A stretch of DNA of 64,000 bases from Pontiella desulfatans (GTDB taxonomy: Bacteria > Verrucomicrobiota > Kiritimatiellia > Kiritimatiellales > Pontiellaceae), in contig NZ_CAAHFG010000001.1 of NCBI RefSeq assembly GCF_900890425.1, positions 3,286,001-3,350,000 on the forward strand, read 5' to 3'. This document shows positions 11,145 to 61,884 of the stretch, one piece after another. Position 1 is the first letter of the stretch, and each line of letters begins with the position of its first letter. The notes below the pieces were generated by a model. It searched no databases and was not told the origin of the DNA. It saw only the letters and a list, made by a program, of their open reading frames with translations. Position numbers and translations under genes: made by a program.

Positions 11145-11163
11145 CGCAAACCCAGGCAGTTCC

Positions 11164-11203
11164 CGGACGGAAAAACTGACGGCCGTCAGTTTTTCCGTCC
11201 GGA
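11164..11203. repeat. 40-bp perfect palindrome, copy 1 of the CGGAAAAACT family
   Basis: A perfect palindrome centred between 11183 and 11184, ten bases after the stop of the AIM24-family gene. The arm reads CCGGACGGAAAAACTGACGG. The A5 and T5 tracts around an ACTGACGG stem would allow termination in both directions. It shares CGGAAAAACT and the matching AGTTTTTCCG with the palindrome at 23310-23355, while paired bases elsewhere differ in a compensatory way. Confidence 0.75.
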
Positions 11204-11213
11204 CCGGGGGAGC

Positions 11214-20471: not shown

Positions 20472-20517
20472 ATGCCGCAAGCCACGGGGTTTTAGCCCCG
20501 AGCTTCGCACCAAGCAT

Positions 20518-20557
20518 GGCCACGGAACGGACCACGGCCGTGGTTTGTTCCGTGGCC
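20518..20557. repeat. Solitary copy of the 40-bp nested palindrome
   Basis: Left arm GGCCACGGAAC, two bases, core ACCACGGCCGTGGT, two bases, right arm GTTCCGTGGCC. Both arms and core are perfect, making this the cleanest copy seen. The same 11-2-14-2-11 layout occurs five times around the PaaX-like gene at 53455-54270. No PaaX-like gene lies near this copy. Confidence 0.85.
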
Positions 20558-20576
20558 AGCCCCTTCCGTTGCTTAA

Positions 20577-23309: not shown

Positions 23310-23355
23310 CTGCGTCACGGAAAAACTCACGATCGTGAGTTTTTCCGTGACGCAG
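23310..23355. repeat. 46-bp perfect palindrome, copy 2 of the CGGAAAAACT family; likely bidirectional terminator
   Basis: Perfect palindrome centred between 23332 and 23333, arm CTGCGTCACGGAAAAACTCA. It lies between two convergent genes (stops at 23271 and 23409), where a bidirectional terminator is expected. The central stem is flanked by A5 and T5. The outer arms and the inner G/C pair differ from the copy at 11164-11203 in a compensatory way. Confidence 0.75.
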
Positions 23356-47155: not shown

Positions 47156-48673
47156 CTAACGCATCCGTTTGCTTTTCAACAGATCCTCAAGTTCGCCCGC
47201 CATGGCCTCCGCCTTTTCCGGATGCGTCTTGATCAAATCGTCCTGCTCTCCTGGGTCGTTGGCCAGATTGAAAAGCTGTGCGGGAACCCCCTTTTTATTG
47301 TGCTTGTAGGCCTGGATATATTTCCATTCCCCCCGGCGCAGGGCGCGCTTGCCTCCGGCCTCCTCGACCATGAAGGGCAGGCCGTTGCGCTCTTCGCCCA
47401 GCAAGGCAGCCAGCGTATTCCGGCTATCGATGCCTTCGTCGTCGGCCAGCTCCTCCCCGAGCAACGCGGCAAAGGAACCCATCAGGTCCACCTGGTTCAC
47501 CAACGCGGCGGACACACCGGGCTTGATGCGCGCCGGCCAGCGGACAATGAACGGCACCCGCGTTCCGCCTTCATAGATCTGGTATTTCCCGCCGCGCCAG
47601 ATCCCGGATCCATCGTGGCCCCGGTCCACTTCTTCGGACGAGGTTTTTACCACGGTTCCGTCATCGTAGCCATCGTCGTAGACGGGGCCGTTGTCGCTCG
47701 AAAAAATCACGATGGTGTTTTCGGTCAGCCCGTTTTCCTCCAGGGCCTTCATGATTTCGCCGGTCGACCAGTCGAACTGCACCATCGCGTCGCCACGGTA
47801 GCCGAGCTGGGTTGAGCCCTGGAAACGCGGGTGCGGAGCGCGCGGCACGTGGATGTCCTGCGAGGCGAAGTAGAGGAAAAACGGACGGTCCTTGTTTTCC
47901 GCAATGTAGTTTTTTGCTTCCTTCACGAATTCATCGGCCATGGTTTCATCGTTCCAAAGCGCAGACGCTCCGCCGGCCATGAAGCCAATGCGGCCGATGC
48001 CGTTGATCACGCTATTGTTGTGGCCGTGCGAGCTTTTGTAGTAGGTCATTGCCTCGGGCGTTTCCTTGGCGTCGGGATATTGCGTGCTGCCCGCATGCTT
48101 CCGAACGTCAGCCAATTTCCGCTCCACGAAAAGTGGATCCTTTGGATCGAGCCCCACCACGTGGTGGTTCTTCAGATAGACGCAAGGCACCCGGTCGTTG
48201 GTGGAAGGCAGCAGGAAGGAATAGTCGAACCCGATTTCCAGCGGCCCCGGCTTCACGGCACCATTCCAATCCGTCGGCACCTCCTTGGCCCCGATACCCA
48301 GATGCCATTTGCCGATCACGCCGGTTTTGTAGCCCGCCCGCTGCAACATTTTGGGCAACGTGGTGATGTCGGTCGGGATCGAGAGCGGAGCATTGGGCGG
48401 CAGGATGCTCACCTTGTGCCGGAAGGCATAGACGCCCGTCAGCATCGAGAAGCGCGACGGCGAACAGGTGGCCGACGTGCAATGGCCATCCGTAAAACGC
48501 AACCCCTCCGCCGCGAGCCGGTCAATATTTGGCGTCGGGATCATTTCCGAGCCATAGGCCCCCACATCGCCAAATCCAACATCATCGCCATAGATCAATA
48601 CAATGTTCGGCCGCGGCGCGGCCACCGAAGCGGAAACCAATCCCGCCAAGACCCATGCAACTATTCTACTCAT
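47156..48673 (-). CDS. Secreted family S1 sulfatase
   Basis: The protein has 505 residues with a signal (MSRIVAWVLAGLVSASVAA). Active-site features: IYGDDVGFGDVGAYG (metal ligands), CSPSRFSMLTG near residue 70 (formylglycine precursor Cys), GVIGKWHLGIGAK, and IFSSDNGPVYDDG. It has an arylsulfatase-A-like layout. It lies 171 bases downstream of the sulfatase at 48845-50233 on the same strand. Substrate position cannot be inferred. Confidence 0.95.
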   Translation of the reverse strand: MSRIVAWVLAGLVSASVAAPRPNIVLIYGDDVGFGDVGAYGSEMIPTPNIDRLAAEGLRFTDGHCTSATCSPSRFSMLTGVYAFRHKVSILPPNAPLSIPTDITTLPKMLQRAGYKTGVIGKWHLGIGAKEVPTDWNGAVKPGPLEIGFDYSFLLPSTNDRVPCVYLKNHHVVGLDPKDPLFVERKLADVRKHAGSTQYPDAKETPEAMTYYKSSHGHNNSVINGIGRIGFMAGGASALWNDETMADEFVKEAKNYIAENKDRPFFLYFASQDIHVPRAPHPRFQGSTQLGYRGDAMVQFDWSTGEIMKALEENGLTENTIVIFSSDNGPVYDDGYDDGTVVKTSSEEVDRGHDGSGIWRGGKYQIYEGGTRVPFIVRWPARIKPGVSAALVNQVDLMGSFAALLGEELADDEGIDSRNTLAALLGEERNGLPFMVEEAGGKRALRRGEWKYIQAYKHNKKGVPAQLFNLANDPGEQDDLIKTHPEKAEAMAGELEDLLKSKRMR

Positions 48674-48844
48674 TCAAAACCCCCATATTGGTGAATCCCA
48701 ATAGACGACCACAAAGGACGCATCGGAACAAGGGCATATGCAACATTTTGGCATCGCTGACTCCGCATCATTCCCCGCCGAACCTGCACGTTGTTTTTTT
48801 CGCCGGGAACGTGCCCTCGGGCAATGCGGCCGGTTCGACCGACC

Positions 48845-50233
48845 CTACCGGTTGTGGGCTTCGAGGGCCTGGGCCAGGCGTTCCGCAATTTCCGGATGAT
48901 CGTTGATCACGTTTTTGCTTTCGCCAATGTCATCCGCCAGATTGTAGAGCGTCGGGGCCTTGGATTCCCGCTTGGTGTCCTTGACCTTGAAGATTTCCTT
49001 CTTGTGGTATTTCCAGTCGCCACTGCGCACCGCGAGGTCGCCGAAAAAGAAATATTCATGCGGCGTCTTTGCGCCCTTTTTCGCGGTGAGCAGATCCATG
49101 ATGTTTTTTCCGGCAAGCGGTTGCTGGGCCGGAAGCGCCGCCCCCGTAACCTGCGCCAAGGTCGGCAACAGATCCATGGTCAGCGCCATTTCCGAGCAGG
49201 CGCTACCCGCCGGAACCTTGCCGGGCCACCGTATGATCGCCGGAACCCGCTGCCCGCCCTCGAAGCGCGTCATCTTGCCTTCAAACAACGGAAGGGCGCA
49301 ACCGCCATGAGCCCCCTTGACCAGCCAAGGGCCATTGTCGGAGGTGAAAACCACGATAGTGTCTTTATCCACACCCAGTTGTTTCAAATGGTTCAGGATG
49401 CGCCCGGTGTTGTGGTCGATCTCCTCGATCACATCGCCATAGAGCCCGCGCGCGCTCTTGCCCTTGAAGTCGGGCGAGGCAAACAGCGGCGTGTGCGGCA
49501 TCGAGTTGGCCAGATAGAGGAAGAAGGGGTTGCCGGCCTTAACGCTTTCGCTGATGAACTGGATGCCTTCATCGGCATAGCGACGGGTTATGGTGGATTG
49601 GTCGGCCGGGAACTCGATGCACTCTTCGTTGCGCATCAGCGGAACCTTGTCCTTCATGGATCGGGGGTTTCCATTGTTGGACTTCCCGGCAAAAGCGTCA
49701 TCCAAGGCCTTGAAATCCATCCCTTCGCGGAACAGGCATCCGTCCGCATATTTCATTTCCTTGGCCGGATACATATCGTTGCTGTAGGGAATGCCATAGT
49801 AGGAATCGAAGCCCTGGTTGGTCGGCAAAAACTCCACATGATCCCCCAGGTGCCACTTGCCGACCGCCTTGGTGGAATAGCCGACCCCCTTCAGCACCTC
49901 GGCAATCGTCACATGCTCCGGCGCAAGCCCCTTGTGCCCCCGGTTCGGGAAAAAGACCCCGGGTACGCCGATCTTACTCGGATAGCATCCCGTCAGCAGA
50001 GCCGCGCGCGAGGCCGAGCAAACGCACGACGCCACATAGAAATCCGTAAAGCGCATCCCTTCGCGGGCCAGCCGGTCCACGTTCGGCGTCTTGATATCCG
50101 GCGAGCCATAGCACCCCAGATCCTGATAGCCCTGGTCGTCGTTCAGGATAATGACAATGTTCGGTTGCTCCGCCGCAAAGACCGCGGTTGCTGCGGCGGC
50201 TACGGCAAGTCCATTCAACATAATGTGTTTCAT
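48845..50233 (-). CDS. Secreted family S1 sulfatase with a CSASR maturation motif
   Basis: The protein has 462 residues with a signal (MLNGLAVAAAATAVFAAEQ region). Metal-site LNDDQGYQDLGCYGSPDIKT and GKWHLGDHVEF, FTSDNGPWLVKG. The modification motif is CSASRAALLTG: alanine replaces the usual proline, which is tolerated by Cys-type maturases. Overall layout follows the sulfatase at 38975-40390. The ATG at 50233 is preferred because the upstream 14 codons lack signal character. It lies 240 bases downstream of the GH115 gene. Confidence 0.94.
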   Translation of the reverse strand: MKHIMLNGLAVAAAATAVFAAEQPNIVIILNDDQGYQDLGCYGSPDIKTPNVDRLAREGMRFTDFYVASCVCSASRAALLTGCYPSKIGVPGVFFPNRGHKGLAPEHVTIAEVLKGVGYSTKAVGKWHLGDHVEFLPTNQGFDSYYGIPYSNDMYPAKEMKYADGCLFREGMDFKALDDAFAGKSNNGNPRSMKDKVPLMRNEECIEFPADQSTITRRYADEGIQFISESVKAGNPFFLYLANSMPHTPLFASPDFKGKSARGLYGDVIEEIDHNTGRILNHLKQLGVDKDTIVVFTSDNGPWLVKGAHGGCALPLFEGKMTRFEGGQRVPAIIRWPGKVPAGSACSEMALTMDLLPTLAQVTGAALPAQQPLAGKNIMDLLTAKKGAKTPHEYFFFGDLAVRSGDWKYHKKEIFKVKDTKRESKAPTLYNLADDIGESKNVINDHPEIAERLAQALEAHNR

Positions 50234-50472
50234 CGGTTTCCCCTGTTCGGATTTTAGCAAATGAACGCTACCCATGGCCTAAAACGGACGCGCCCACGTT
50301 AAGGCACCATACCTATCATCATAAGCCAGGCCATACAATCCCCTTCCATGCAAGACTCCGTTTTCGAAGGATTGATCCATCTGCGTGGAGCAGGCCGAAA
50401 GCACATCGACGCCGAAAAACACCCACAGCGAATGCGTGCAAAACGAAGGATAACGGCGATGGGGTTGCGCGT

Positions 50473-53106
50473 TTACAGCGCCTTGACCACCACGCCGTAC
50501 ATGGCGGAGACCCCGCTGTTGAGAATGGAGCCGAGTACGACGGTTTCGCCAGCCTTGAAGGTTTTCCCGTAGAGCAACAGATGATTTCTGGCATCAACCG
50601 ACCAACCCGTTTCCTCCCAGCTTGCAAGCCAGGCCGGGAGGTTTCGTACTTCATCCTTCAACGCCACATAGACCGTGCAGTCCTTTTTCAGCTTGAAGGT
50701 GATGAGGTCGTCGCGGTCGCTTCCCCGGTCCTGCATGGGGGTCTGGATCAGGGTTGCGCCCTCAAGCTCCGCAGGCACCTCGCCCACGGTGTATTTTCTG
50801 TCGGTCCAAAGGACGGCATTCTTGGTGAAGCCGTCCGGAACGATCGAGTAGGCATGTTGCGAGTTGAACCTTTCATCCTGAATCAGGTCGCTGGCCCGGC
50901 GGGGTTGTTGCCGAACGGTCTTCTTGAACACCTCGCCGTTTTCCAACACCTCCAACCCTCGGCCGGAATGCTTATGAAAATAGGGATAGACGCCGTCGCC
51001 GTGCTCCATGTATGCCTGGGCCGACCCCCAGAACGAACCGTTCATGTAGCCGCGGGTGGCCGAGGTGAACGGCTTGCCTTCGATCCGGGCAATCGTCTGT
51101 TTCAGGATCAGGCGCGTGCGCCAGATATCCATCAGGCGGACATGCATGAACATCGTATCCCAAATGCCATACTCCGCCTTGTGCGCCTCGGCAATGACGA
51201 GTTCCAGCTCCGCCAGCGCCCCCTGCAGGTTCCCGGCAAAGGCCTGCGGGTTGCGGTCGCGCAGATATTGGTCGAACGCGCGGTTCACGAGCGCGAGCAT
51301 CCTGCAGGAATGCATATGGACGGCCACCTGGTAGGTGAAGTGCGCCTGGTAGAATAACCTGCGATCCGGCGGAATCTGTTTTTCCAGTTTCTTGGTTTGC
51401 GCCCAGAGCCCCGGGAAAAACTCCGCGGTTTCCGCCAAGGGTTCCCTGGCCTGGCTGAACTGTTTGTCAAAGCCGTCGATGGCCCGGAGATCCTCCCCCT
51501 TCTCCACCGCCGCGGCATATTTCTTGAGCATTTCCTGCGTCAGGTATTGAAGCAGGTGCTCCGCGCGGGCACCCCGCCAACGCCCCTGCACCGGCATCTT
51601 TTCGCGCATGTAGGGAATGTCGTAATACTGCAGGCGCAGCTCGGCCAGTTCAGTCGCCAACTGCGGGGAAAACGCCTTGGCATACCACGCCGTGAGATAC
51701 TCCTTCATCGCCTCATCCGGGCTCTTGGCCAGCGCGGGCTCGGCATCCCAAAGGAAATCGGTAATGGCTTCGACCGACATCGCGGCCGGCCGGATGCCGC
51801 TGACGTTGATGATGGCGTATCGGGTGGCGCCCTTTTCCACATAGCGCCGGAGTTCACTGTAGAAACGGGCGGGCGGAACAGCCTCCGTGGTGCGGTTCTG
51901 GGTGTTCATCATCATCATGACGTGGTAGTAGAGCCCGTCGCCCGCATCAAGATCAGAGCCGTCCCCTTTGTCGCGCATATACCCCCGGCCATCGTCGGCA
52001 AACATTTTGCAAACCCCGTCCGGAACCTTCAGCAGACCGTCGTTATAGAACCTTCCGAGTTCATTCCACAGGGCGGCAACGATGGTTGCATCCGGATCGA
52101 TTTCCCGAATGATGTCCGTCTGTTTCTGCATGGCTTCCGCAATCACCGCCGCACGGCCGGCATCGTCCTTGGGGGTAGCGGGATCGCTATGCCAGAAGGC
52201 GCCGTCGGACTCCCCGCGGAAGCCGACGATCCAGGCGACCTTCTTGTCGGCCTGCGCCAGCGCGGCCTTGCGCCACGCATCTTCGAGAATGTCCTTGTGC
52301 GTGATGTAGGAGAACGGCACACCCTTCGGCCAGTTCATCATGTTCAAGCCCAGCGGCGCGATATGATGGTGGGTAATGATGACATCGCGCCGCTTGCACA
52401 GGTCGTAGACGGTCGCGTCCGGATAGGGCGAAGACTCCGGGATAATCATGTTGCCCTTGCAGCGCAGCAGGGTTTCGAGAATCTTGTCCATCCATTCCAT
52501 GGAAATCACGTTCCCGCCCAGCGGATCGCGGTGCATGCCATCGTGCAGCTCCTCGTCGTTGATGAACCACCCGCGGTTTTCGAAGGTCGGTGCCTTGGAG
52601 CAATAGGCATGATCACGGGTAAAGGCGATTTCCCCGCGCCGCGCCGGAACCTGGTCGGTGAAGACATACATTGGGTCGATGCCGAGCACCCGCTCGCAAA
52701 AGGTATAGATGGCAAAGACCGTGCCACGGGTGTCGGAGCCGATCGCGGCAATGGCCGGATTGTTTTTCACTTTCACCGGGAACAGCCGATGCTGCTCCTT
52801 GCCCTCAGGAACCTCGGCATCGAGCAAGTGCGCCGTGTTCGCCTTGGATCCAAAAACGATGATTGCCCCATCCCAGGAGTTGCGTGGATTATCCTTGAAG
52901 ACCACCGGCGGAATGCCGAACACCTTGTACCAATCGCGCTCGGCATCGCGGATGGCTTCCTGGATCGCCGGGTTTTCGTAATCCTTCTCCATGACCACCC
53001 ACGGTGTATCACCGTTGATTTTCAAGGAGGCGGGCGCGGCGAACAGCAGCTGCCCGGCGAAGGCAACGACGATAAGGAGCAAAAAGGTACGCGTCTGATA
53101 TTTCAT
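50473..53106 (-). CDS. Glycoside hydrolase family 115, alpha-glucuronidase-like
   Basis: The protein has 877 residues with a signal (FLLLIVVAFAGQLLFAAPA). It shows GH115 features: AIAAIGSDTRGTVFAIYTFC, VLGIDPMYVFTDQVP, FENRGWFINDEELHDGM, the region NMIIPESSPYPDATVYDLCK, ITHHHIAPLGLNMMNW, and VAALWNELGRFYNDG. GH115 enzymes remove 4-O-methyl-glucuronic acid or glucuronic acid side groups from xylan and other plant or algal polymers. AGGGA precedes the ATG. A perfect 16-bp palindrome lies 60-75 bases upstream of the start. Confidence 0.92.
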   Translation of the reverse strand: MKYQTRTFLLLIVVAFAGQLLFAAPASLKINGDTPWVVMEKDYENPAIQEAIRDAERDWYKVFGIPPVVFKDNPRNSWDGAIIVFGSKANTAHLLDAEVPEGKEQHRLFPVKVKNNPAIAAIGSDTRGTVFAIYTFCERVLGIDPMYVFTDQVPARRGEIAFTRDHAYCSKAPTFENRGWFINDEELHDGMHRDPLGGNVISMEWMDKILETLLRCKGNMIIPESSPYPDATVYDLCKRRDVIITHHHIAPLGLNMMNWPKGVPFSYITHKDILEDAWRKAALAQADKKVAWIVGFRGESDGAFWHSDPATPKDDAGRAAVIAEAMQKQTDIIREIDPDATIVAALWNELGRFYNDGLLKVPDGVCKMFADDGRGYMRDKGDGSDLDAGDGLYYHVMMMMNTQNRTTEAVPPARFYSELRRYVEKGATRYAIINVSGIRPAAMSVEAITDFLWDAEPALAKSPDEAMKEYLTAWYAKAFSPQLATELAELRLQYYDIPYMREKMPVQGRWRGARAEHLLQYLTQEMLKKYAAAVEKGEDLRAIDGFDKQFSQAREPLAETAEFFPGLWAQTKKLEKQIPPDRRLFYQAHFTYQVAVHMHSCRMLALVNRAFDQYLRDRNPQAFAGNLQGALAELELVIAEAHKAEYGIWDTMFMHVRLMDIWRTRLILKQTIARIEGKPFTSATRGYMNGSFWGSAQAYMEHGDGVYPYFHKHSGRGLEVLENGEVFKKTVRQQPRRASDLIQDERFNSQHAYSIVPDGFTKNAVLWTDRKYTVGEVPAELEGATLIQTPMQDRGSDRDDLITFKLKKDCTVYVALKDEVRNLPAWLASWEETGWSVDARNHLLLYGKTFKAGETVVLGSILNSGVSAMYGVVVKAL

Positions 53107-53165
53107 GAATTCATTTCCCTGGTTACATGCTCCAAACAGAATACAAGGCATATGAGACAAGCCTA

Positions 53166-53181
53166 TCCTACGTTCGTAGGA
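53166..53181. promoter_or_regulatory. Palindrome TCCTACGTTCGTAGGA, possible operator for GH115
   Basis: Arms TCCTACG/CGTAGGA separated by two bases, centred about 67 bases upstream of the GH115 start. The position suits an operator. It differs in sequence from the 40-bp palindrome family that starts 100 bases further right. Confidence 0.35.
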
Positions 53182-53283
53182 GGGTTCACAAGCATACGTC
53201 GATACGATTCACCCGGAAAATAAATATGCTACCGCCATGAAAGGTCCATTAGCTTTCTCGATGGTCATGCCGCCCCGCAATCC

Positions 53284-53323
53284 GACCACGCAACTATCCA
53301 CGGCCGTGGACAGTTGCGTGGCC
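53284..53323. repeat. 40-bp nested palindrome, copy B
   Basis: Left arm GACCACGCAAC, core TCCACGGCCGTGGA, right arm GTTGCGTGGCC, each separated by two bases. Both arms have CGCAAC/GTTGCG in place of CGGAAC/GTTCCG of the solitary copy, a paired (compensatory) change. It lies 3' of the PaaX-like gene. Confidence 0.85.
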
Positions 53324-53348
53324 AACGAATCCTGGGACGGAAACGCCA

Positions 53349-53388
53349 GGCCCCGGAAAACACCACGGCCGTGGACGGTTGCGTTACC
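53349..53388. repeat. 40-bp nested palindrome, copy C (arms degraded)
   Basis: Left arm GGCCCCGGAAA, core ACCACGGCCGTGGA, right arm GTTGCGTTACC with the same spacing. The core is almost intact; the arms no longer pair fully. It lies 25 bases from copy B. Confidence 0.7.
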
Positions 53389-53412
53389 AACGGGGTTGGA
53401 ATTTAATGTCAA

Positions 53413-53452
53413 GTTAGCAGGAAGCACCACGGCCGAGGGCCGCTCCGTGACA
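53413..53452. repeat. 40-bp nested palindrome, copy D (partly decayed)
   Basis: Core ACCACGGCCGAGGG and right arm GCTCCGTGACA keep the spacing; the left arm is no longer recognisable. It ends two bases before the stop codon of the PaaX-like gene, so it lies at the gene's 3' edge. Confidence 0.55.
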
Positions 53453-53454
53453 GG

Positions 53455-54270
53455 TCAATTGGTCGCCTGGTCGGTGATTTGGGAGACGATGCGTTGATGA
53501 CGATCCCAAACCTCTTTGCCGAGATAGCCCGAAGGGAGCAGCTCGTCGGGAAGCAGGGGATCCGTGACCATGGCTTGCGAATAGGCGAGGTTGTCCATGC
53601 GCAGGAGTTGAATCAAATCCGCATGGCCATGGTTTCCTGCCAACAACAGCGATAGATTCTTGTCGGCGGCGGCAAGGTATTGCGTGTGGAAACTTTTGAG
53701 CCTGTCGAAGTTCCACGCTTCACGAACCACCGACTGGTTGCCGTGTCCAAGCACGGTTCGCGCTTCGAACAGATGTGCAATGCTGTCAACATTCGCCGCG
53801 TGGTCTAGGTCGTCGTATTCAGGGCGGACATCCCGGGGCGTCACCCAAACGCTTTGCTGAAGGCATCCGAAGCGGAGCCGCTTCAAGAATTCCCGCAACT
53901 GGTCTCGATACAATCTTTCGCGTTCCGGCACGTCGAACATCAGCACATACCACCATCGGTTCCACGGTTTCGACCAGAGCTTGTCCGGCCAGTAGTAGAC
54001 GGGAACCAAGGATTCGGCCTCATCCGTCAGTCTCAGTTCAGGAAGCGTCCCGTCCGTGTGCGGCGCAATCAGCAGTCCTTTCTTCCGCAACCGGTTAACC
54101 GACGCGTGGAAAGCCTTCCGTGAAGGATAGCAATGACCATAGAAGTCGCAGGCTCCTGCGCTCAACACCATGCCTGCGGTTTGATCCAGCAGGGTTACAA
54201 GCTCCTCGCCCACCTTGCGGCGGATGACGGGAAGCGAAATGTCTGGATGGTGCAATGTTTCCCATTTCAT
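53455..54270 (-). CDS. PaaX-family regulator-like protein flanked by nested palindromes
   Basis: The protein has 271 residues. An N-terminal winged helix (about 15-85; SRKAFHASVNRLRKKGLLI) is followed by the PaaX middle domain, a ferredoxin-like fold related to Cas2 (WWYVLMFDVPERERLYRDQL, LKRLRFGCLQQSVWVTPRD), and the C-terminal PaaX signature DPLLPDELLPSGYLGKEVW. PaaX repressors bind short palindromes and respond to small ligands; E. coli PaaX controls phenylacetate genes, which are absent here. Three 40-bp palindromes lie just 3' and two just 5', one of them 30 bases before the ATG. It could be a local regulator that binds these, or the protein of a REP-like element. Confidence 0.85.
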   Translation of the reverse strand: MKWETLHHPDISLPVIRRKVGEELVTLLDQTAGMVLSAGACDFYGHCYPSRKAFHASVNRLRKKGLLIAPHTDGTLPELRLTDEAESLVPVYYWPDKLWSKPWNRWWYVLMFDVPERERLYRDQLREFLKRLRFGCLQQSVWVTPRDVRPEYDDLDHAANVDSIAHLFEARTVLGHGNQSVVREAWNFDRLKSFHTQYLAAADKNLSLLLAGNHGHADLIQLLRMDNLAYSQAMVTDPLLPDELLPSGYLGKEVWDRHQRIVSQITDQATN

Positions 54271-54299
54271 GAGGCAAACTTACAGGGAAACCGCCTGCA

Positions 54300-54339
54300 T
54301 GTCACGGAACTTTCCACGGCCGTGGTCGGTTCCGTTGCC
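54300..54339. repeat. 40-bp nested palindrome, copy E
   Basis: Left arm TGTCACGGAAC, core TCCACGGCCGTGGT, right arm GTTCCGTTGCC with two-base spacers. It lies 30 bases upstream of the PaaX-like ATG, over the expected promoter, so a bound regulator would affect that gene. Confidence 0.82.
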
Positions 54340-54381
54340 ACAAAGAAGGAGGATATCTTGGGACTATCTCCCCCCCCCAGG

Positions 54382-54421
54382 GGCCACGGAAAGCACCACG
54401 GCCGTGGCCAGTTCCGTGGCC
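54382..54421. repeat. 40-bp nested palindrome, copy F
   Basis: Left arm GGCCACGGAAA, core ACCACGGCCGTGGC, right arm GTTCCGTGGCC with two-base spacers. It is the rightmost copy, 62 bases before the stop of the esterase-like gene. Together with copy B it bounds a 1.14-kb unit. Confidence 0.82.
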
Positions 54422-54483
54422 CAGAGAATGCGAAGGGATGGGAGGGATTCAACGAACAGGGTCTGTTTTCTCGAATAGCCCGA

Positions 54484-56334
54484 TTATGGATCGATCCAGC
54501 GCAGGTTGCGGAACTCGGGCACCTTGCCCTTCCATGCTGCACCATATGTTGCCCTCTTCGTTTGACCATCCACCGTTTTCTTCAGCGAATCCTTTGCACC
54601 CAGCCGCAGTTCTCGGATCGCCTGATACCCCGCCATGGATTCGCCGCCTGCGTCTTTAAAATCAGAGGATGAAAGAACAACCTGCTGCCACGTCCCCCCA
54701 CCCTTCAGCGCAACTTCGGCTGCGTAGGAATCAATGCCGACGGCCATCTTGTTCGCTTCGTCGGCCTTGACTTCAAAGGCGAGCTTTGCGCCTTCGGGCG
54801 CTTTCCATCGCGGATCGTAGATCTTGTGCGTTTTACGGCCCCACTCCTCCGGCCGGTAGGTGAACCATTCCTTTTGCCAATCCCCTTCGAACGACTCGAT
54901 ATCCAATGTCGGCTTTAGCGATGCCTTGACGCCGCCGGCGTTCAACTCGCCCGGCGTACCCATTTCCATTCTCGAAGAAAGGTTAAACCGATCCGTAGTA
55001 TATTCGCCGTAATAATACCCCGCCCCGGTCACCGGATCGTCCAGCGGATAAACCACATTGGCATACACCCAAAGCGGCTTGTCGGCGCCGGATAGCGGAA
55101 GCTCCGCCGTCCAGACGCCGTCCTTTTTCTCGGTCTTCGCATGGTGCCAAAACCGGGCTTTCGTATTTTCGCGGTCGTCCTTCTCCCCGTCCATCTGCCC
55201 CTGCCGGGTATAGAACACATCCACCTCCAGTACGGGTTTCGATGGGTCGGGTTTCACGGAAAACTGCGGAACACCGCCCAACTTCAAATCCGTTGCCGGG
55301 GTTTCCGGCCATTTGAACGTACCCTTCAGATGCTCATCGAACCACAACAGCGAAGCCACCTCGTAATCCTTTGTGTCCTGATGGTTGTGGTGTGCGGCGC
55401 AGGTGGCCCGCCATTGGTCGGTTTGGATTTCGGTTATCGCCGTCTGCAAATCATTGATCCGCCCATGGAAATCGTTGGCCGGACTCAGAAACATGATCGG
55501 ACAGTTGATCTTCTTCAGCGAAACGGCATCGTCGCACTCCGCACCGCCGTCGCGGCCGCTGATGCCGCCGCAGGACGGCGCCGCCGCCTTCACCCTGGCA
55601 TCGGCTCCGGCGGTCAACACGGTCAGCTTGCCGCCCATTGAATGGCCGTATACGCCCATCCGGGTTTTATCCACCTCGGGCTGTTGTTCCAGGAAGGTCA
55701 ATGCGCGGCGTGCGGCGAGCGTGCACAAGAACCACTGGTTGTTGCGGGGCGATTCCACCGGATCGAGCGTCCACTCCGTCGGCTTTGTGTTGCCGAACGA
55801 ACCAAGGCCACTTCTGGTCGGCGCATGGTATGCATCCAGCGCGCCCCAGTCGGTCGTCACCCGATAGTTCGGGTGATCGGTTTTGTTTTCCCAAAACAAT
55901 TTAACGACGTCGGGGTTCACCTTGTGATCCGGCGCATTGATTCTTCCCGCCCAGGAAATCGACACCGTGGCGTATCCGCGCTTCGCGTTGGCCAGCGGCG
56001 CCCGGTAATCGGCATACTGCCCGCCGCCATGAATCTGCACCAACCCGGGCAGGTTATTCCCTCCTTTGGGGAAACCGTACACCCCGGCCAACATGGCCTT
56101 CTCGCCCTTAAAGATCCCGACGCGGAAGCGCACGACCCGCAGCACCACGCCGTCCTCTTCCCATTCCTTCAGGATTTCCATATCCAGCGGTTCGGCGCGT
56201 GGGTCAAATCCCGCCCAAAGCTCCGCATGCGTCTGCGGTGCCGGAGTTCCGTTCAACGGTGCCAAGGTTTCAGCAAAGAGCCCCGGCACCAGGCATGCGA
56301 CCATCCCCAAGACCTTGAATCGTTGCGTTCCCAT
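54484..56334 (-). CDS. Secreted alpha/beta hydrolase, probable carbohydrate esterase
   Basis: The protein has 616 residues with a signal (MVACLVPGLFAETLA). The alpha/beta hydrolase core has the oxyanion region VQIHGGGQYADYRAPLANAK, the nucleophile elbow YGHSMGGKL near residue 229, an acid candidate in MFLSPANDFHGR, and His in AAHHNHQDT. The last 250 residues form a beta-rich extra domain. Its layout resembles acetylxylan-esterase-like proteins of polysaccharide clusters, so it may remove acyl groups. It starts 11 bases after GH95 ends, so it is probably cotranscribed. Confidence 0.82.
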   Translation of the reverse strand: MGTQRFKVLGMVACLVPGLFAETLAPLNGTPAPQTHAELWAGFDPRAEPLDMEILKEWEEDGVVLRVVRFRVGIFKGEKAMLAGVYGFPKGGNNLPGLVQIHGGGQYADYRAPLANAKRGYATVSISWAGRINAPDHKVNPDVVKLFWENKTDHPNYRVTTDWGALDAYHAPTRSGLGSFGNTKPTEWTLDPVESPRNNQWFLCTLAARRALTFLEQQPEVDKTRMGVYGHSMGGKLTVLTAGADARVKAAAPSCGGISGRDGGAECDDAVSLKKINCPIMFLSPANDFHGRINDLQTAITEIQTDQWRATCAAHHNHQDTKDYEVASLLWFDEHLKGTFKWPETPATDLKLGGVPQFSVKPDPSKPVLEVDVFYTRQGQMDGEKDDRENTKARFWHHAKTEKKDGVWTAELPLSGADKPLWVYANVVYPLDDPVTGAGYYYGEYTTDRFNLSSRMEMGTPGELNAGGVKASLKPTLDIESFEGDWQKEWFTYRPEEWGRKTHKIYDPRWKAPEGAKLAFEVKADEANKMAVGIDSYAAEVALKGGGTWQQVVLSSSDFKDAGGESMAGYQAIRELRLGAKDSLKKTVDGQTKRATYGAAWKGKVPEFRNLRWIDP

Positions 56335-56345
56335 CCTAGCCCCTC

Positions 56346-58811
56346 CTACTTCAGTTTGATTTTAAGTTTCAGGTCGTCGCCTTTCTTCAGGGAAATCTCC
56401 CGATACTGTTCGCCATATTTCGATGCGCCGACGGCCTGCGGGCGGCTGCACTCCAGCCTCAGGATTTCACCCGGCAACTTCAGGGAGAACGTGGCGTTGC
56501 GCTTGGCAAGGAGCGTCAGTTCGACCTCCTTTTTCGCCATGTCCCATTGGGCGGACGCGCTGGCCCCGGTGCGGGTCAGCAGGCCGTGGAACTCGCCGGC
56601 CGGCCAGCTGGCCGGAAGCGCCGGCAGCAAGCGGAGCATGTCGGCGGTCGATCCGCAGAGCATTTCCATGACCGCCGCGGGAATGCCGAAATTGGCATCC
56701 ATTTGAAACGGGGCCGTACGCCCCCAGGTAATCGGCAAGGTTACACCCATCTTGCGCCAGTCGTTGTGATAGGTGAAAAGGTTTTGCCCCAGGCAGCAGC
56801 GTGAGAGGATGTTCAAGGCTTCCAGTGCCTTTTCCCCGTCGCCCAGCCGGGCATAGACATTGGCCATGTGCGCCAGCGACCACCCCGTCTGCGATTTGAG
56901 GCCAATGACCAGCCGCTTCTCGATCGCCACCCGGCAGGCGTCGTAGAGCGCCGGGTCGGACTCCGCCGTAATCTCCTGCCCAGGGAAGAGCGGATAGAGG
57001 TGCGACTGGTGGCGATGCTCATAGTTGTCTTTGAAGTCCGGATGCATCCATTCCTTCAGCGCACCCTCTTCGTTCACCTGGTAGTCCGGCATATCGGCGA
57101 TCATTTGTTTCCAGCGTTTCACGCCGCCCTGCTCCACCCCCACGGCCTCGCATGCCTCAACCAGGTTGCCGAAAACCTCTTTGGCAATGGCCACGGCGAT
57201 CGTCGAATTGATCTGCACTTTGATTTTGCCTACGCGGCCGGTTTTCGGATCCGTGATCATTTTGTCCGCCGGTTGGTTTTCCGGTGACTGGGAAGGCAGG
57301 AACATGTTTTTGCCATTTGCATCCTTGACGATGTAGTCCTCGTAGAAGAGCGCGACTTCCTTCATGAAGGGGATCGCGCGCTCCCTGAGGAATTTTTCGT
57401 CGCCGGTGAAGAGGTAGTAGTCGTAGTAGAACGAGGCCAACCAGCCGGCGGCATCCGTCCAGTAGACGACGTGCGGCGCGGTGTGGCGCATGACGCCGGA
57501 GTCCGGCGACATGAAGGGCGGGATATAGATGCCGCGGCAGCCCCAAAGTTGCTTGGCGTTATAGCGAAACTCGTCGAGATGGCTGTCGAAATAGTCGTAG
57601 AAGGCCATCATCGATTCCTGCATGTTGCCGGGCAGCGCCTGCCAATAGGTCATCTGCAGGTTTTCGTTAATGCCATACAGTCCGCTCCACGGCGGGCGGT
57701 AGTCCCCGTTCCAGATGCCCTGCAGCCCCGCCGGATAGCCCCCCGCCCGGCTGCTGGAAATCAGGAGGTAGCGGCCATAGTTGAACAGTTTTTCAACCAA
57801 CTCCGGCGATGCCGGGTTTTGATAGGCATCCAGCAGCAACCGTTCGTTCGGGGTGTCCTGCCTATCCGCCATGTTTAAACGCAGCCCCATGGAATTAAAT
57901 TTTGCACGGTGGAGCGGATGGTGGCGGTCGAAAAGTTTTCCGTAATCCCCAGCGTGCGCCGCGAGTTGCTTTTTCACACGCGGCATGGCCGTTGCGCCCT
58001 CCTCGTTCGCAAAGAACCCGACCAGCAAGACAACCTCGTCCGCATTGGAAAACCGGATCGATTTCCCATCGGCTTCCATGGTCCCGTTTTTGCAGACCAC
58101 ACGCACCGCGCCACCGAACTCCCCCCCATCGGAGCCATCGGCATGGAACTCGATAAAGTCGCCATCGGCAACCGTCCGGTAGGTAAAGCCCGGATCAAAC
58201 GATTTCCCGCTTTGCTCGATGGCATCGTTCAGATCGTGGATATCCAGCGTGACGTCGCCATTCACCGCACCCGCACGGTCGGCGCTGATCGACATCGCCG
58301 AAAGATGATCCGGAATCGAAACAAAGAGCCTTCGCGAAAAACGGGTTTCCCCATCCCGCCACTGGACCTCCACTTCGCCGGTTTCGAAGTCGAGCGTGCG
58401 CGAATAGTCCTCGAACATGCGGTCGGTGTCGGTTGTGACCAGCATATCGAAGGCCGGGTGGTAGACGGCATTGCGGGCACTGAATCCCTTTTCCAGAAGC
58501 TTCTTCTTATAGTGACCGTTCGCTTCGGAATAGTTTCCCTTAAGCAACAAATCCCGCACCACCGGAAGCTCGGCCGACATGTCCGGCACCTCGTCCACCT
58601 TGCCCATGTACCACAGCTTGTTGTGGTTGAACAGGACGCGCTCTTCATTGACCGAACCGTAGACCAGTGCGCCGATTTCCCCATTTCCCGAAGGCAACGC
58701 TTCGCGCCACTGCGCGGAAGGTTTGATCATCGTCATGCCATGCCGATATTCAGCTCCATGGGAAACAACGCAGGCACTGAACAAGGCCCATATGGTGGTT
58801 TTCTTCAGCAT
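56346..58811 (-). CDS. Glycoside hydrolase family 95, alpha-L-fucosidase/galactosidase
   Basis: The protein has 821 residues with a signal (TIWALFSACVVSHGAEYR). GH95 hallmarks: REALPSGNGEIGALVYGSVN, LFNHNKLWYMG, GGYPAGLQGIWNGDYRPPW, GINENLQMTYWQALPGNM, YEHRHQSHLYPLFPGQEI, and FQMDANFGIPAAVMEML. The (alpha/alpha)6 enzyme inverts and cleaves terminal alpha-L-fucose or alpha-L-galactose. The ATG at 58811 is chosen because AGGGA lies before it; the in-frame ATG at 58823 has no spacing for it. It follows the GH28 gene by 15 bases in one operon. Confidence 0.95.
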   Translation of the reverse strand: MLKKTTIWALFSACVVSHGAEYRHGMTMIKPSAQWREALPSGNGEIGALVYGSVNEERVLFNHNKLWYMGKVDEVPDMSAELPVVRDLLLKGNYSEANGHYKKKLLEKGFSARNAVYHPAFDMLVTTDTDRMFEDYSRTLDFETGEVEVQWRDGETRFSRRLFVSIPDHLSAMSISADRAGAVNGDVTLDIHDLNDAIEQSGKSFDPGFTYRTVADGDFIEFHADGSDGGEFGGAVRVVCKNGTMEADGKSIRFSNADEVVLLVGFFANEEGATAMPRVKKQLAAHAGDYGKLFDRHHPLHRAKFNSMGLRLNMADRQDTPNERLLLDAYQNPASPELVEKLFNYGRYLLISSSRAGGYPAGLQGIWNGDYRPPWSGLYGINENLQMTYWQALPGNMQESMMAFYDYFDSHLDEFRYNAKQLWGCRGIYIPPFMSPDSGVMRHTAPHVVYWTDAAGWLASFYYDYYLFTGDEKFLRERAIPFMKEVALFYEDYIVKDANGKNMFLPSQSPENQPADKMITDPKTGRVGKIKVQINSTIAVAIAKEVFGNLVEACEAVGVEQGGVKRWKQMIADMPDYQVNEEGALKEWMHPDFKDNYEHRHQSHLYPLFPGQEITAESDPALYDACRVAIEKRLVIGLKSQTGWSLAHMANVYARLGDGEKALEALNILSRCCLGQNLFTYHNDWRKMGVTLPITWGRTAPFQMDANFGIPAAVMEMLCGSTADMLRLLPALPASWPAGEFHGLLTRTGASASAQWDMAKKEVELTLLAKRNATFSLKLPGEILRLECSRPQAVGASKYGEQYREISLKKGDDLKLKIKLK

Positions 58812-58826
58812 AGATTTATCCATTCC

Positions 58827-60200
58827 CTATTTTACAACAAACCCTTCAACATCGTCCGCAACGATCATTTCCCGGGCATCCGGAGCACGCGTGCCCATGT
58901 TCAGATTCCGGAATTCAACGTTCTTTGCATGGCGCACATACGCCCCCCACGAAGGCAGCACCCCGAAGAAAAACTGTTCCGGATAGCGGGCAATGTCCTC
59001 GGCAATTTCACGTTCCGCATCTTCCGCGGTTCCTCCGCCCGGATAGCTGATTTCGATATTCTCCAGCATCACATTTTCAATGCAATGCCCGGGTATGCCC
59101 GAAATCATGATGCCGCAGCGCTTTTGGATATCGCTGGTCACGGTGGCCTTGATGTTGCTGATGCGAATGTTTTTACAGTTACCCACCGGCACGCCCTCCG
59201 GCTCTACATCCTGCTTCTGAATTTGCTCCGTGGGTTTGTCATACTTGCGGCCACGATTGGCCAGGCGAATAAAGATCGGCCCCTCGACATCGTTCATCAC
59301 AATGTTGTCGATCGTGATGTCTTCCAGGATGCCGCCATCCACCGACAACAACTTGATGGCGCCCATCCGGGTGCCTGAAAAATCGCAGTTGGAAACGGTG
59401 ATGTTCTTAAACCCACCACGCGACGACGTGCCGCATTTAAAGGCCGAGGTATTGCTTTCCGCCCGGCAGTTTTTCACCACAATGTTTTCGCAGAGCCGGG
59501 TGGTTGTGCTCTTCGGACAGATCGCATCGTCGCCCGTGCGGATTGTGCACTCTTCCAGCAAAACATTTTTGCAGCCGTCCAGGTCGAAGCCGTCATTGTT
59601 GCGGTTCACGTGGCTATCGATGGTCACCTTGCGGGCCACGACTTCATCGCAGTTGACCAAATGGGTGCACCAGGAGGCGGCATCCTTGAAGGTGACATTT
59701 TCAAAAACCACCCCGACGCAGTCGACGAACCGGATCAGCATCGGGCGGTCGTGGTAGGCTTCCCGAGGGCCGATGGGGAAATTTTCCGTGTGCCCACGGC
59801 CATTGATGATGCCCCCGCCGGTAATGCGTATGTTTTTCGAATTTTCCGCGTACACCAGGCACTCGTCAAAGGCGGGCCCCTCGATCGCGCCTTGGATATC
59901 GCGGGCATAATCGTTGATCGAGAGACTGCCCAGCAATTCTGCCCCCTCATCCAAGCGCAGTTCCACATTGCTTTTCAGCTTAATCGTACCGATATGGTAG
60001 CTCCCCGCCGGTACATACACCACGCCGCCTTCGCTTGCGTGGCACGCATCGATCGCGGCCTGCATGGCCTTCGTGTCCATTGCAACGCCATCGCCGATGG
60101 CACCGTAGGTTCTAACATTGAACAGCGTTGCGGCCTGGCAGGAACCCAAGCCCACGCCAAACATTACAGTCAACATAACCCAAATCTTTTGATTACCCAT
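58827..60200 (-). CDS. Glycoside hydrolase family 28-like protein (copy 1)
   Basis: The protein has 457 residues with a signal (IWVMLTVMFGVGLGSCQA). A parallel beta-helix starts with the TYGAIGDGVAMDTKAMQAAI signature. The GH28 acidic residues appear in NRNNDGFDLDGCKNV and RTGDDAICPKST, followed by KCGTSSRGGFKNITV. GH28 enzymes hydrolyse polygalacturonan and related uronic-acid or rhamnose linkages. It is about half identical by eye to the next gene upstream, so they are tandem paralogues. The start at 60200 excludes a non-signal extension. Confidence 0.9.
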   Translation of the reverse strand: MGNQKIWVMLTVMFGVGLGSCQAATLFNVRTYGAIGDGVAMDTKAMQAAIDACHASEGGVVYVPAGSYHIGTIKLKSNVELRLDEGAELLGSLSINDYARDIQGAIEGPAFDECLVYAENSKNIRITGGGIINGRGHTENFPIGPREAYHDRPMLIRFVDCVGVVFENVTFKDAASWCTHLVNCDEVVARKVTIDSHVNRNNDGFDLDGCKNVLLEECTIRTGDDAICPKSTTTRLCENIVVKNCRAESNTSAFKCGTSSRGGFKNITVSNCDFSGTRMGAIKLLSVDGGILEDITIDNIVMNDVEGPIFIRLANRGRKYDKPTEQIQKQDVEPEGVPVGNCKNIRISNIKATVTSDIQKRCGIMISGIPGHCIENVMLENIEISYPGGGTAEDAEREIAEDIARYPEQFFFGVLPSWGAYVRHAKNVEFRNLNMGTRAPDAREMIVADDVEGFVVK

Positions 60201-60332
60201 ATCTTTTTTTTCACTCCTTCCCAACGAGGGGAACGCCCTTATCGCGCATCGGTATTGATTCATTCAAGGTCCCATTCTACCCGACCATCGAAAACCGTAT
60301 ATCCTTCGTTTATGGGATATCCTTCCTATCCA

Positions 60333-61793
60333 TTACCGTTCAGCAAAGCCTTCAACATCCACCAGCACGATCTTTTCACGTTGATCTGCCAAGCGCGTTG
60401 ACAGGCTGACGTTCTTGAACTCGATGTTTTTGGCGTGGCGGACGTAGGCGCCCCACGCAGGGAGCACGCCAAAGAAATACTGTTCAGGGTAACGGGCGAC
60501 GTCTTCCGCAACCTCGCGCTTCACGTCGGCTTCGGTTCCGTGGCCGGGGAAGGAAATCTCGATATTTTCCAACACGACGTTTTCGACACGGTGTCCCGGA
60601 ATACCCGAAATCATGATCGGCCCCGCCTTCGACTTTTCGGCATCCGTCACGCCCAGGGTCTTGTCCAGCGTCAGCCCCTTGTAGGTTGCCCGAAGCGCCT
60701 TTTCGCGTTCCTCGATGGTCACCGTTGCGGACAGGTCGCTGATGCGCACGTTTTTCAGGGTGCCGACGGGCATGCCCTCCGGCTGCGACCCCGCATCCTG
60801 CCCCGCCACGTGGCGGTCGGTCTTGTTTTCATATTTCCGGCCCCGGTTCCCCAACCGAATGAAGACCGGGCATCCCACCTCTTCCATTACGATCCGGGAA
60901 ATATCGATGTTCTCCAGCCGCCCGCCGTCCACGCACTGCAGCTTGATGGCCCCCATCGGACAATCATGGAAATAGCAATTGCTCACATCGACATCGATAA
61001 AACCACCGCGCGACGAGGTGCCGAACTTGAGCGCGGCGGTGTTGCTCGCCACCCGGCATCCGCGCACGACAATGTTGCGGCAGGGATTCTTCGAGCTTTT
61101 CAGGCAGATCGCGTCGTCGCCGGACTCGATGTCGCAGTTTTCAATCAGCACGTTTTCGCAGCCGTCCAGATCGAGGCCGTCGTTGTTGTAGTTGTTGTTG
61201 CGCATCCGCACGGTAACGCCGTTGAAAACGATGTCCTTGCAGTCGATCAGGTGGATTCCCCAGAAGGCCGGACGTTTATAGGCAACGCCCGAAAAGGCGA
61301 GGTTCCTGCAGTTGACCATCCGCAACAGGCGCGGGCGCGGGAGGCGTTCCTTCGAACCGCTCCTGGTGCGCGGGAACGCCTCGGCCGTTCCCCGTCCGTC
61401 GATCACCCCAAGCCCCTCGATCCGGATGTTCACCGCATCGGCCGCATAGAGCAGGCAACGGGGGCCGCCCTCCCGGGGATCGTCGAGGCCATCGATCGGA
61501 TAGTCGGCCAGGTTTTGGCTTCCAAGCAAAGCCGCGCCATGGTCGAGCGACAGGGTCACGTCGCTTTTCAGATGAATCGTACCGATGTGGTATTGCCCCG
61601 GCGGCACGCGCACCATGCCCCCGCCCGCCGCGTTGCAGGCATCGATCGTTTTCTGCAACGCAACGGTGTCCATCGCGAGGCCATCGCCGACCGCCCCGAA
61701 TTCCTTCACATTGAACTCGGCGGAACAAGCCAGCGCCGCACCGAACAGACCCAAAAAAAGAGGGAACCGCATGGTTATTTTTGCAACGGGCAT
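60333..61793 (-). CDS. Glycoside hydrolase family 28-like protein (copy 2)
   Basis: The protein has 486 residues with a signal (FPLFLGLFGAALACSAEFN). It has the same layout as copy 1: EFGAVGDGLAMDTVALQKTI, NNDGLDLDGCENVLIENCD, ESGDDAICLKSS and KFGTSSRGGFIDVDV. The two copies end almost identically (FFGVLPAWGAYVRHAKNIEF). A GGAG site eight bases before the ATG at 61793 fixes the start. Likely substrates are galacturonic- or rhamnose-containing chains, to be matched to the neighbouring sulfatases. Confidence 0.9.
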   Translation of the reverse strand: MPVAKITMRFPLFLGLFGAALACSAEFNVKEFGAVGDGLAMDTVALQKTIDACNAAGGGMVRVPPGQYHIGTIHLKSDVTLSLDHGAALLGSQNLADYPIDGLDDPREGGPRCLLYAADAVNIRIEGLGVIDGRGTAEAFPRTRSGSKERLPRPRLLRMVNCRNLAFSGVAYKRPAFWGIHLIDCKDIVFNGVTVRMRNNNYNNDGLDLDGCENVLIENCDIESGDDAICLKSSKNPCRNIVVRGCRVASNTAALKFGTSSRGGFIDVDVSNCYFHDCPMGAIKLQCVDGGRLENIDISRIVMEEVGCPVFIRLGNRGRKYENKTDRHVAGQDAGSQPEGMPVGTLKNVRISDLSATVTIEEREKALRATYKGLTLDKTLGVTDAEKSKAGPIMISGIPGHRVENVVLENIEISFPGHGTEADVKREVAEDVARYPEQYFFGVLPAWGAYVRHAKNIEFKNVSLSTRLADQREKIVLVDVEGFAER

Positions 61794-61884
61794 CTTATTC
61801 ACTCCGCTTCATGGTTATCTGCGTTTTCATGGTTTTTTTTTTGACCGAACCACCTTGCCGGTGCGCATGCCGTGCTCCCCTTCA

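Follow-up and report, generated by a model that had tools for sequence, protein, structure and literature searches.

The question raised by this locus is whether the palindromes around a PaaX-like gene are operators of a repressor or copies of a dispersed repeat that the encoded protein binds, maintains or spreads. Within the window (the whole 64,000-nucleotide stretch of Pontiella desulfatans DNA analysed here), an ORF coding for a 271-aa PaaX-like protein is enclosed by five palindrome copies. The initial annotation had described three of these on the 3' side of the gene and two on the 5' side, and all five were found where it had put them, one in a decayed state. It had also correctly listed a copy in the 20518 region but had overlooked 11161-11204 and 23311-23354, two perfect palindromes that belong to sister families. 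The relevant features are given below (palindromes carry no strand).

53455..54270, minus strand: PaaX-like gene, 271 aa, with an N-terminal winged-helix-like part, a Cas2-like PaaX_M domain (residues 101-182) and PaaX_C
53282..53325: 3'-side palindrome, 18/20 paired, arm CCACGCAAC
53347..53390: 3'-side palindrome, 12/20 paired, partly decayed, core intact
53411..53454: 3'-side palindrome, 9/20 paired, decayed, core CCACGGCCGAGG
54298..54341: 5'-side palindrome, 14/20 paired, centre ~50 bp upstream of the start codon
54380..54423: second 5'-side palindrome, 16/20 paired
20516..20559: solo palindrome of the focal gene's family, 18/20 paired, intergenic
11161..11204: solo palindrome, 20/20, of the family of a paralog at C2:349578 of the window's genome, G000 (GGACGGAAAAACTGACGG)
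23311..23354: solo palindrome of GTCACGGAAAAACTCACGA type, 20/20, nearest gene arms in the sister species G016

Four of the five copies around the focal gene share the exact core CCACGGCCGTGG, the exception being the decayed third copy. When run on the window, a covariance model built from palindromes of the same class recovered three focal-locus copies and the 20516 copy, with E-values of ~1e-6 to 1e-4 that are rough, the calibration having been short. Among the genes of its own genome, the one whose arms come nearest to the 23311-23354 palindrome is the C2:349578 paralog. Profile searches (Pfam/NCBIfam) with the focal protein matched PaaX_M (E 2.5e-24), PaaX_C and, only weakly, Cas2. Sulfatases, a DUF4838-like protein, an alpha/beta hydrolase and GH95-like and pectate-lyase-like genes, all named by inspection only, make the surroundings (47156-63000) a polysaccharide utilisation neighbourhood. 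In G001, the orthologues of the two genes next to the focal locus were considered as marking an empty site, and this was rejected: a sulfatase-like gene stands between them in place of the PaaX unit, and there is no palindrome.

The palindromes are loopless and symmetric, with a conserved centre. Across forty aligned copies of very different letters, Watson-Crick or G-U pairing reaches 91%, and the two halves covary (score 0.858, versus 0.198 in shuffled alignments and at most 0.18 when slid). The core and the outer arm, which spans 10-19 bp from the centre, are strongly paired, the stretch between them less so, and pairing stops at about ±20 bp; the common core reads YCACGA/TCGTGR or TGACGG/CCGTCA. 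G-U pairs make up only ~4% of paired cells, a rarity that points to a palindrome acting as DNA and not as RNA. Near-perfect inverted repeats, many of them close to gene ends, could in principle be bidirectional terminators or mRNA-stability hairpins. Such an RNA-level role is already disfavoured, and we give it hardly any weight: besides lacking a loop, having few G-U pairs and finding no match in Rfam, the palindromes have arms that are specific to the locus and common to both sides of its gene.

The arrangement at the focal locus is a general one. The 8.66-Mb genome of the window carries nine paralogous PaaX-like genes, with 42-68% identity to the focal one, and such genes occur patchily, some of them broken, in 19 of 58 relatives. 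Almost all of those examined are flanked on both sides by ~40-bp palindromes, whose centres usually lie 25-50 bp ahead of the start codon and 20-50 bp past the stop codon. Bracketing by loopless palindromes of this size was observed in Kiritimatiellota, Lentisphaerota, Verrucomicrobiota and Patescibacteria, and one flank could be read on a Spirochaetia contig. Among ~104 unique loci with both flanks in hand, a set that may retain a few near-duplicates, a palindrome is present on both sides at 69, on one side at 26 and on neither at 9; the same palindrome score is attained by 5% of random 300-bp windows. The two palindromes of one locus match each other in their arms (similarity 0.80, versus 0.33 across loci), and arm similarity grows with protein identity (Mantel r=0.40, 0/2000 permutations). 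No other gene is common to the bracketed units. Their neighbours are unrelated and variable (ruvA/typA, nadB, GluRS-like, Cys_Met, polysaccharide genes), with no link to aromatic catabolism of the phenylacetyl-CoA type. Searches of viral and phage collections returned no relatives, so that, as far as seen, the PaaX-like genes are not phage-borne.

Several individual loci deserve mention. One paralog of the window's genome (L013/L157, C1:4199226-4200023) is interrupted by an in-frame TAG in the precise place of the codon for Q138, a residue that is otherwise invariant (see below), yet both its palindromes and several solo copies of its family are still near perfect. PaaX-like genes of P. sulfatireligans (L077) and G009 (L045) are frame-broken and still flanked by cognate palindromes. 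Patescibacterial relatives (L099, L106-L125) are often short, ~120-190 aa over the matched part, yet palindrome-bracketed, and several match PaaX_M without a PaaX_C match. In G021 (L168, C2:2408832-2413858), a PaaX-like gene, an 801-aa ORF and a 415-aa ORF lie between four successive palindromes, possibly a composite unit with cargo. In G016 (L172, 9350-9620), the ~30 bp that come after the outermost of three palindromes are similar to the sequence immediately interior to the element's own 3' palindrome, which gives the impression of a truncated tandem copy.

The upstream palindrome invites the simpler explanation already raised in the initial annotation, that of operators serving autoregulated repressors of the ordinary kind; architectural DNA-binding proteins would be a variant of it. 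The specificities of the paralogs would have diverged and the sites followed in trans by selection, with nothing mobile involved. Proteins of the PaaX family act as repressors, and that of E. coli, which represses its own promoter, has the operator TGATTC(N27)GAATCA; like the palindromes, this operator has a ~39-bp span and separated arms (PMC9493321). The placement of a palindrome centre ~25-50 bp before the start codon suits an operator as well. Most loci, however, also have a copy just downstream of the stop codon. Moreover, no palindrome pair was found at E. coli paaX or at three actinobacterial PaaX regulators used as negative controls; the latter are plasmid matches, of the catabolic type.

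Copies away from PaaX-like genes bear on the same choice. With the covariance model, at least ~70 palindrome sites, mostly solo, were found in G000, a lower bound since scoring covered no more than 150 of the 1211 first-look candidates; P. sulfatireligans has ~20 sites and five gene loci. The solo sites form families, and most families correspond to a single resident gene: in 44 of 58 solo rows the arms of the genome's own gene were matched better than those of any foreign gene (because of overlapping loci, one palindrome enters these rows three times and another twice). A TTAAATCC-type solo family in G000 fits genes of sister species, as expected if its own gene has been lost.

Palindromes and genes also occur together. 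Sites were found in 16 of 17 gene-bearing genomes versus 5 of 28 gene-less ones (p=8e-7, 45 genomes). This first model had been trained on gene-adjacent palindromes, some of them taken from the genomes under test, and a second was therefore built from other phyla; it found sites in 13 of 14 gene-bearing and in none of 18 gene-less genomes (p=4e-8). The gene-less set for the second model comes from the Pontiella side, that is, from phyla other than those of the positives, and so controls for chance palindromes, not for phylogeny. Many relatives are draft metagenome assemblies, and the five gene-less genomes with sites likely reflect either draft assemblies or gene loss, which was not tested. 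G034, G012 and G037 contain several palindromes without a detected PaaX_M gene and are candidates for recent gene loss or assembly gaps. That gene-less relatives of similar size lack sites is a further difficulty for the operator explanation.

Certain outcomes would, according to the initial annotation, have refuted a link between protein and repeat: absence of the palindrome beyond this locus and 20518, abundance in genomes without the gene, or association with a RAYT gene. None of the three came about, and the interpretation given there is supported. The palindrome proved to be widespread in the genome and mostly absent where the gene is absent. As for RAYT, the patescibacterial genomes G324 and G326 both contain palindromes and have no Y1_Tnp gene, and a RAYT partner was rejected on this ground. 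The same observation weighs against a broader proposal, that another enzyme (Y1/RAYT) or replication slippage or template switching mobilises the palindromes while the PaaX-like protein merely binds and stabilises them. G000 does contain 19 Y1_Tnp matches, and the symmetric re-lettering of arms at fixed sites (see below) resembles palindrome correction by template switching. Each palindrome family nevertheless pairs with one PaaX-like gene and with no other gene, and the bracketed units have no further gene in common; we regard the proposal as improbable.

Comparison of orthologous positions revealed element-sized empty sites; the palindromes bracket PaaX-like genes, stand alone, and are missing from some sites in relatives, the distribution that the initial annotation had suggested looking for. 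In mfd, an insert of exactly 42 bases, which adds 14 residues in frame, is present in G000, G008, G016 and G021; the stretch measures 105 nt in these occupied genomes versus 63 nt in nine empty ones, which include G001, the sister of G008. There are 33 extra bases in G013. The mfd inserts come from different families, and in G000, G008, G016 and G021 the family is that of a resident gene. No formal count of gain versus loss was made at mfd, and the rooting of the species tree on G010 is unreliable. A 42-bp insert leaves room for a target duplication of 2 bp at most; no target-site duplication, direct repeat or target consensus was found beyond ±20 bp in 108 solo copies. The SRAP gene carries palindromes of several families across seven species, that of G008 being a decayed remnant in a genome where the TAAATCC-type gene was not found. 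Palindromes also lie inside a GH2 glycosidase gene (L245, position 1551) and a B12-binding radical SAM gene (L255, position 1565); translated in the frame also used in SRAP, both yield beta-strand-like peptides (xSKxTxVxxDxT).

A single site may hold different palindrome families in different species, usually that of the species' own gene. Another intergenic site is occupied by different families in G000 and G002 and lacks a palindrome in G016 and G001. A palindrome at a further intergenic site, with flanks of ~80% identity in G016 and G008, has changed symmetrically between these two genomes, in G008 to the letters of that genome's own gene. Whole units show presence and absence too. One lies between ruvA and typA in G000, G003 and G006 and is absent from G004, G009 and G020; another separates, in G016, two genes that are direct neighbours in G027; a third, beside nadB, is found only in G000. 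The nadB locus was rejected as an exact empty site, another small gene having been gained there. Some gene-bearing units keep to one locus from species to species (ruvA-typA, GluRS-like/PALP, Cys_Met), an indication of slow movement or of vertical descent, and no transposition event was observed.

Positions that are often kept between species, with letters changing symmetrically to fit the resident gene, speak for operators, and co-evolving binding sites could also give such re-lettering. The shared sites could stem from re-insertion, from replacement in place or from selection on binding. Against a purely regulatory origin stand coding sequences that contain a complete 42-bp insertion where sister species are empty. 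The operator alternative accounts for the copy upstream of the start codon and leaves the 3' copies, the solo copies and the coding insertions unexplained; we judge it unlikely, while not dismissing it.

An AlphaFold model of the protein, built from a 76-sequence alignment (mean pLDDT 86), has the PaaX fold; in the PDB it comes closest to E. coli PaaX, Rv0674 and a Jannaschia PaaX-like protein, followed by Cas2 structures, which match the middle domain. The middle domain, for which the initial annotation cited the Cas2-like ferredoxin fold of PaaX, matches Cas2 in both sequence and structure. The three-part fold (wHTH, PaaX_M, PaaX_C) is that of the PaaX repressors (E. coli PaaX 8a39, PaaX-like 3l09, Rv0674 3kfw). 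W103, D113, R122, G135, Q138 and S140 are invariant in 76/76 relatives, and D113 lies at the end of the first strand of the ferredoxin fold, where Cas2 has its metal Asp; the focal middle domain aligns to positions 2-36 of the Cas2 profile. Resemblance to Cas2 and VapD ferredoxin-fold nucleases extends to this Asp and to the Q-S-V-W/F strand. Whereas the palindrome-linked proteins keep the Cas2-type Asp, R122 and Q138, sampled canonical PaaX members have S, Y, S or E at the Asp position, vary at the R122 and Q138 positions and lack flanking palindromes. The focal protein scores 52 bits against the NCBIfam PaaX equivalog, for which the cut-off is 265. In contrast to Cas2, the domain is set between a winged helix and PaaX_C, and the neighbourhoods inspected contained no CRISPR array or Cas1, nor any cas gene among the named neighbours.

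Residue conservation makes the D113 site suggestive of nuclease chemistry; it is no proof, and catalytic competence is untested. Nuclease-like invariant residues together with many chromosomal copies could also indicate self-marking, in which a Cas2-like nuclease recognises protective chromosomal tags (addiction or self/non-self discrimination). Neither a methylase or immunity partner nor a defence-gene context was seen, PADLOC reported weak Cas2 similarity only, and this idea seems to us very improbable.

We therefore favour, with appreciable doubt, a REP-like dispersed-palindrome system whose partner is a PaaX/Cas2-fold protein in place of RAYT. In REP/RAYT systems, the gene lies between two palindromes of its own and co-evolves with them, and the abundance of the cognate repeat follows gene presence (PMC2817692). 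All this has its counterpart here: the PaaX-like gene between two cognate palindromes, their co-evolution, dispersed cognate copies outside genes in numbers that correlate with gene presence, and orthologous units that change palindromes yet keep palindromic symmetry. The differences are that the protein has no Y1/HUH domain (Pfam/NCBIfam), that the palindromes are ~40 bp, loopless, fully symmetric and conserved at the centre, with no GTAG/CGTC head, and that about 75 copies are present here as against hundreds. Since the Y1 transposase and the headed imperfect hairpin, both defining for REP, are absent, the system works like a REP system without being one. With IS200/IS605 and other single-gene insertion sequences it shares a compact one-gene unit, two terminal palindromes and non-autonomous end copies; unlike them, it has no known transposase domain, both of its ends are complete palindromes that share one core, and no target duplication or target motif was found.

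On this favoured reading, each PaaX-like gene between two cognate ~40-bp palindromes would act as a master (REPtron-like) unit, of which the solo palindromes would be non-autonomous copies. A dimer of the protein would read the palindrome as double-stranded DNA, the winged helices probably contacting the family-specific outer arms (~9 bp each, located 10-19 bp from the centre), with the common core probably left to the central Cas2-like domains; new palindromes would arrive as discrete 42-bp insertions, the protein most likely nicking or joining DNA through its invariant Cas2-type Asp/Arg site. With the upstream palindrome just before the start codon, autoregulation would be built in. Cognate recognition by the resident protein is well supported, although binding is inferred. 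What the protein does is unproven: binding and maintenance are strongly implied, whereas spreading, insertion by this protein rather than by another enzyme, catalysis and the assignment of domains to DNA are inferences. The strongest version, in which the Cas2-fold protein is itself the transposase or integrase of the 40-bp palindromes (with no chemistry of the DDE, HUH, serine or tyrosine type) and the palindromes of fixed sites are repeatedly swapped to the resident protein's specificity, remains a tentative possibility, which we would not presume to be correct.

The recurrence of the gene-palindrome partnership in several phyla gives it the look of an undescribed system for spreading, or at least maintaining, repeats. 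No earlier description was found in open PMC papers, bioRxiv and most subscription papers being outside the search. Its newness lies in an unrelated partner protein and a palindrome of another kind, and would be lower if the operator explanation were true. The logic of REP/RAYT, private dispersed palindromes co-evolving with a gene, would here be realised by an unrelated protein. The system makes it testable whether a Cas2-like fold mobilises DNA, which bears on the place of Cas2 in the CRISPR integrase, and it offers many natural protein-palindrome specificity pairs within one genome. For the family as a whole, "PaaX regulator" annotations in PVC bacteria and Patescibacteria that carry the Cas2-type Asp may not denote metabolic repressors.
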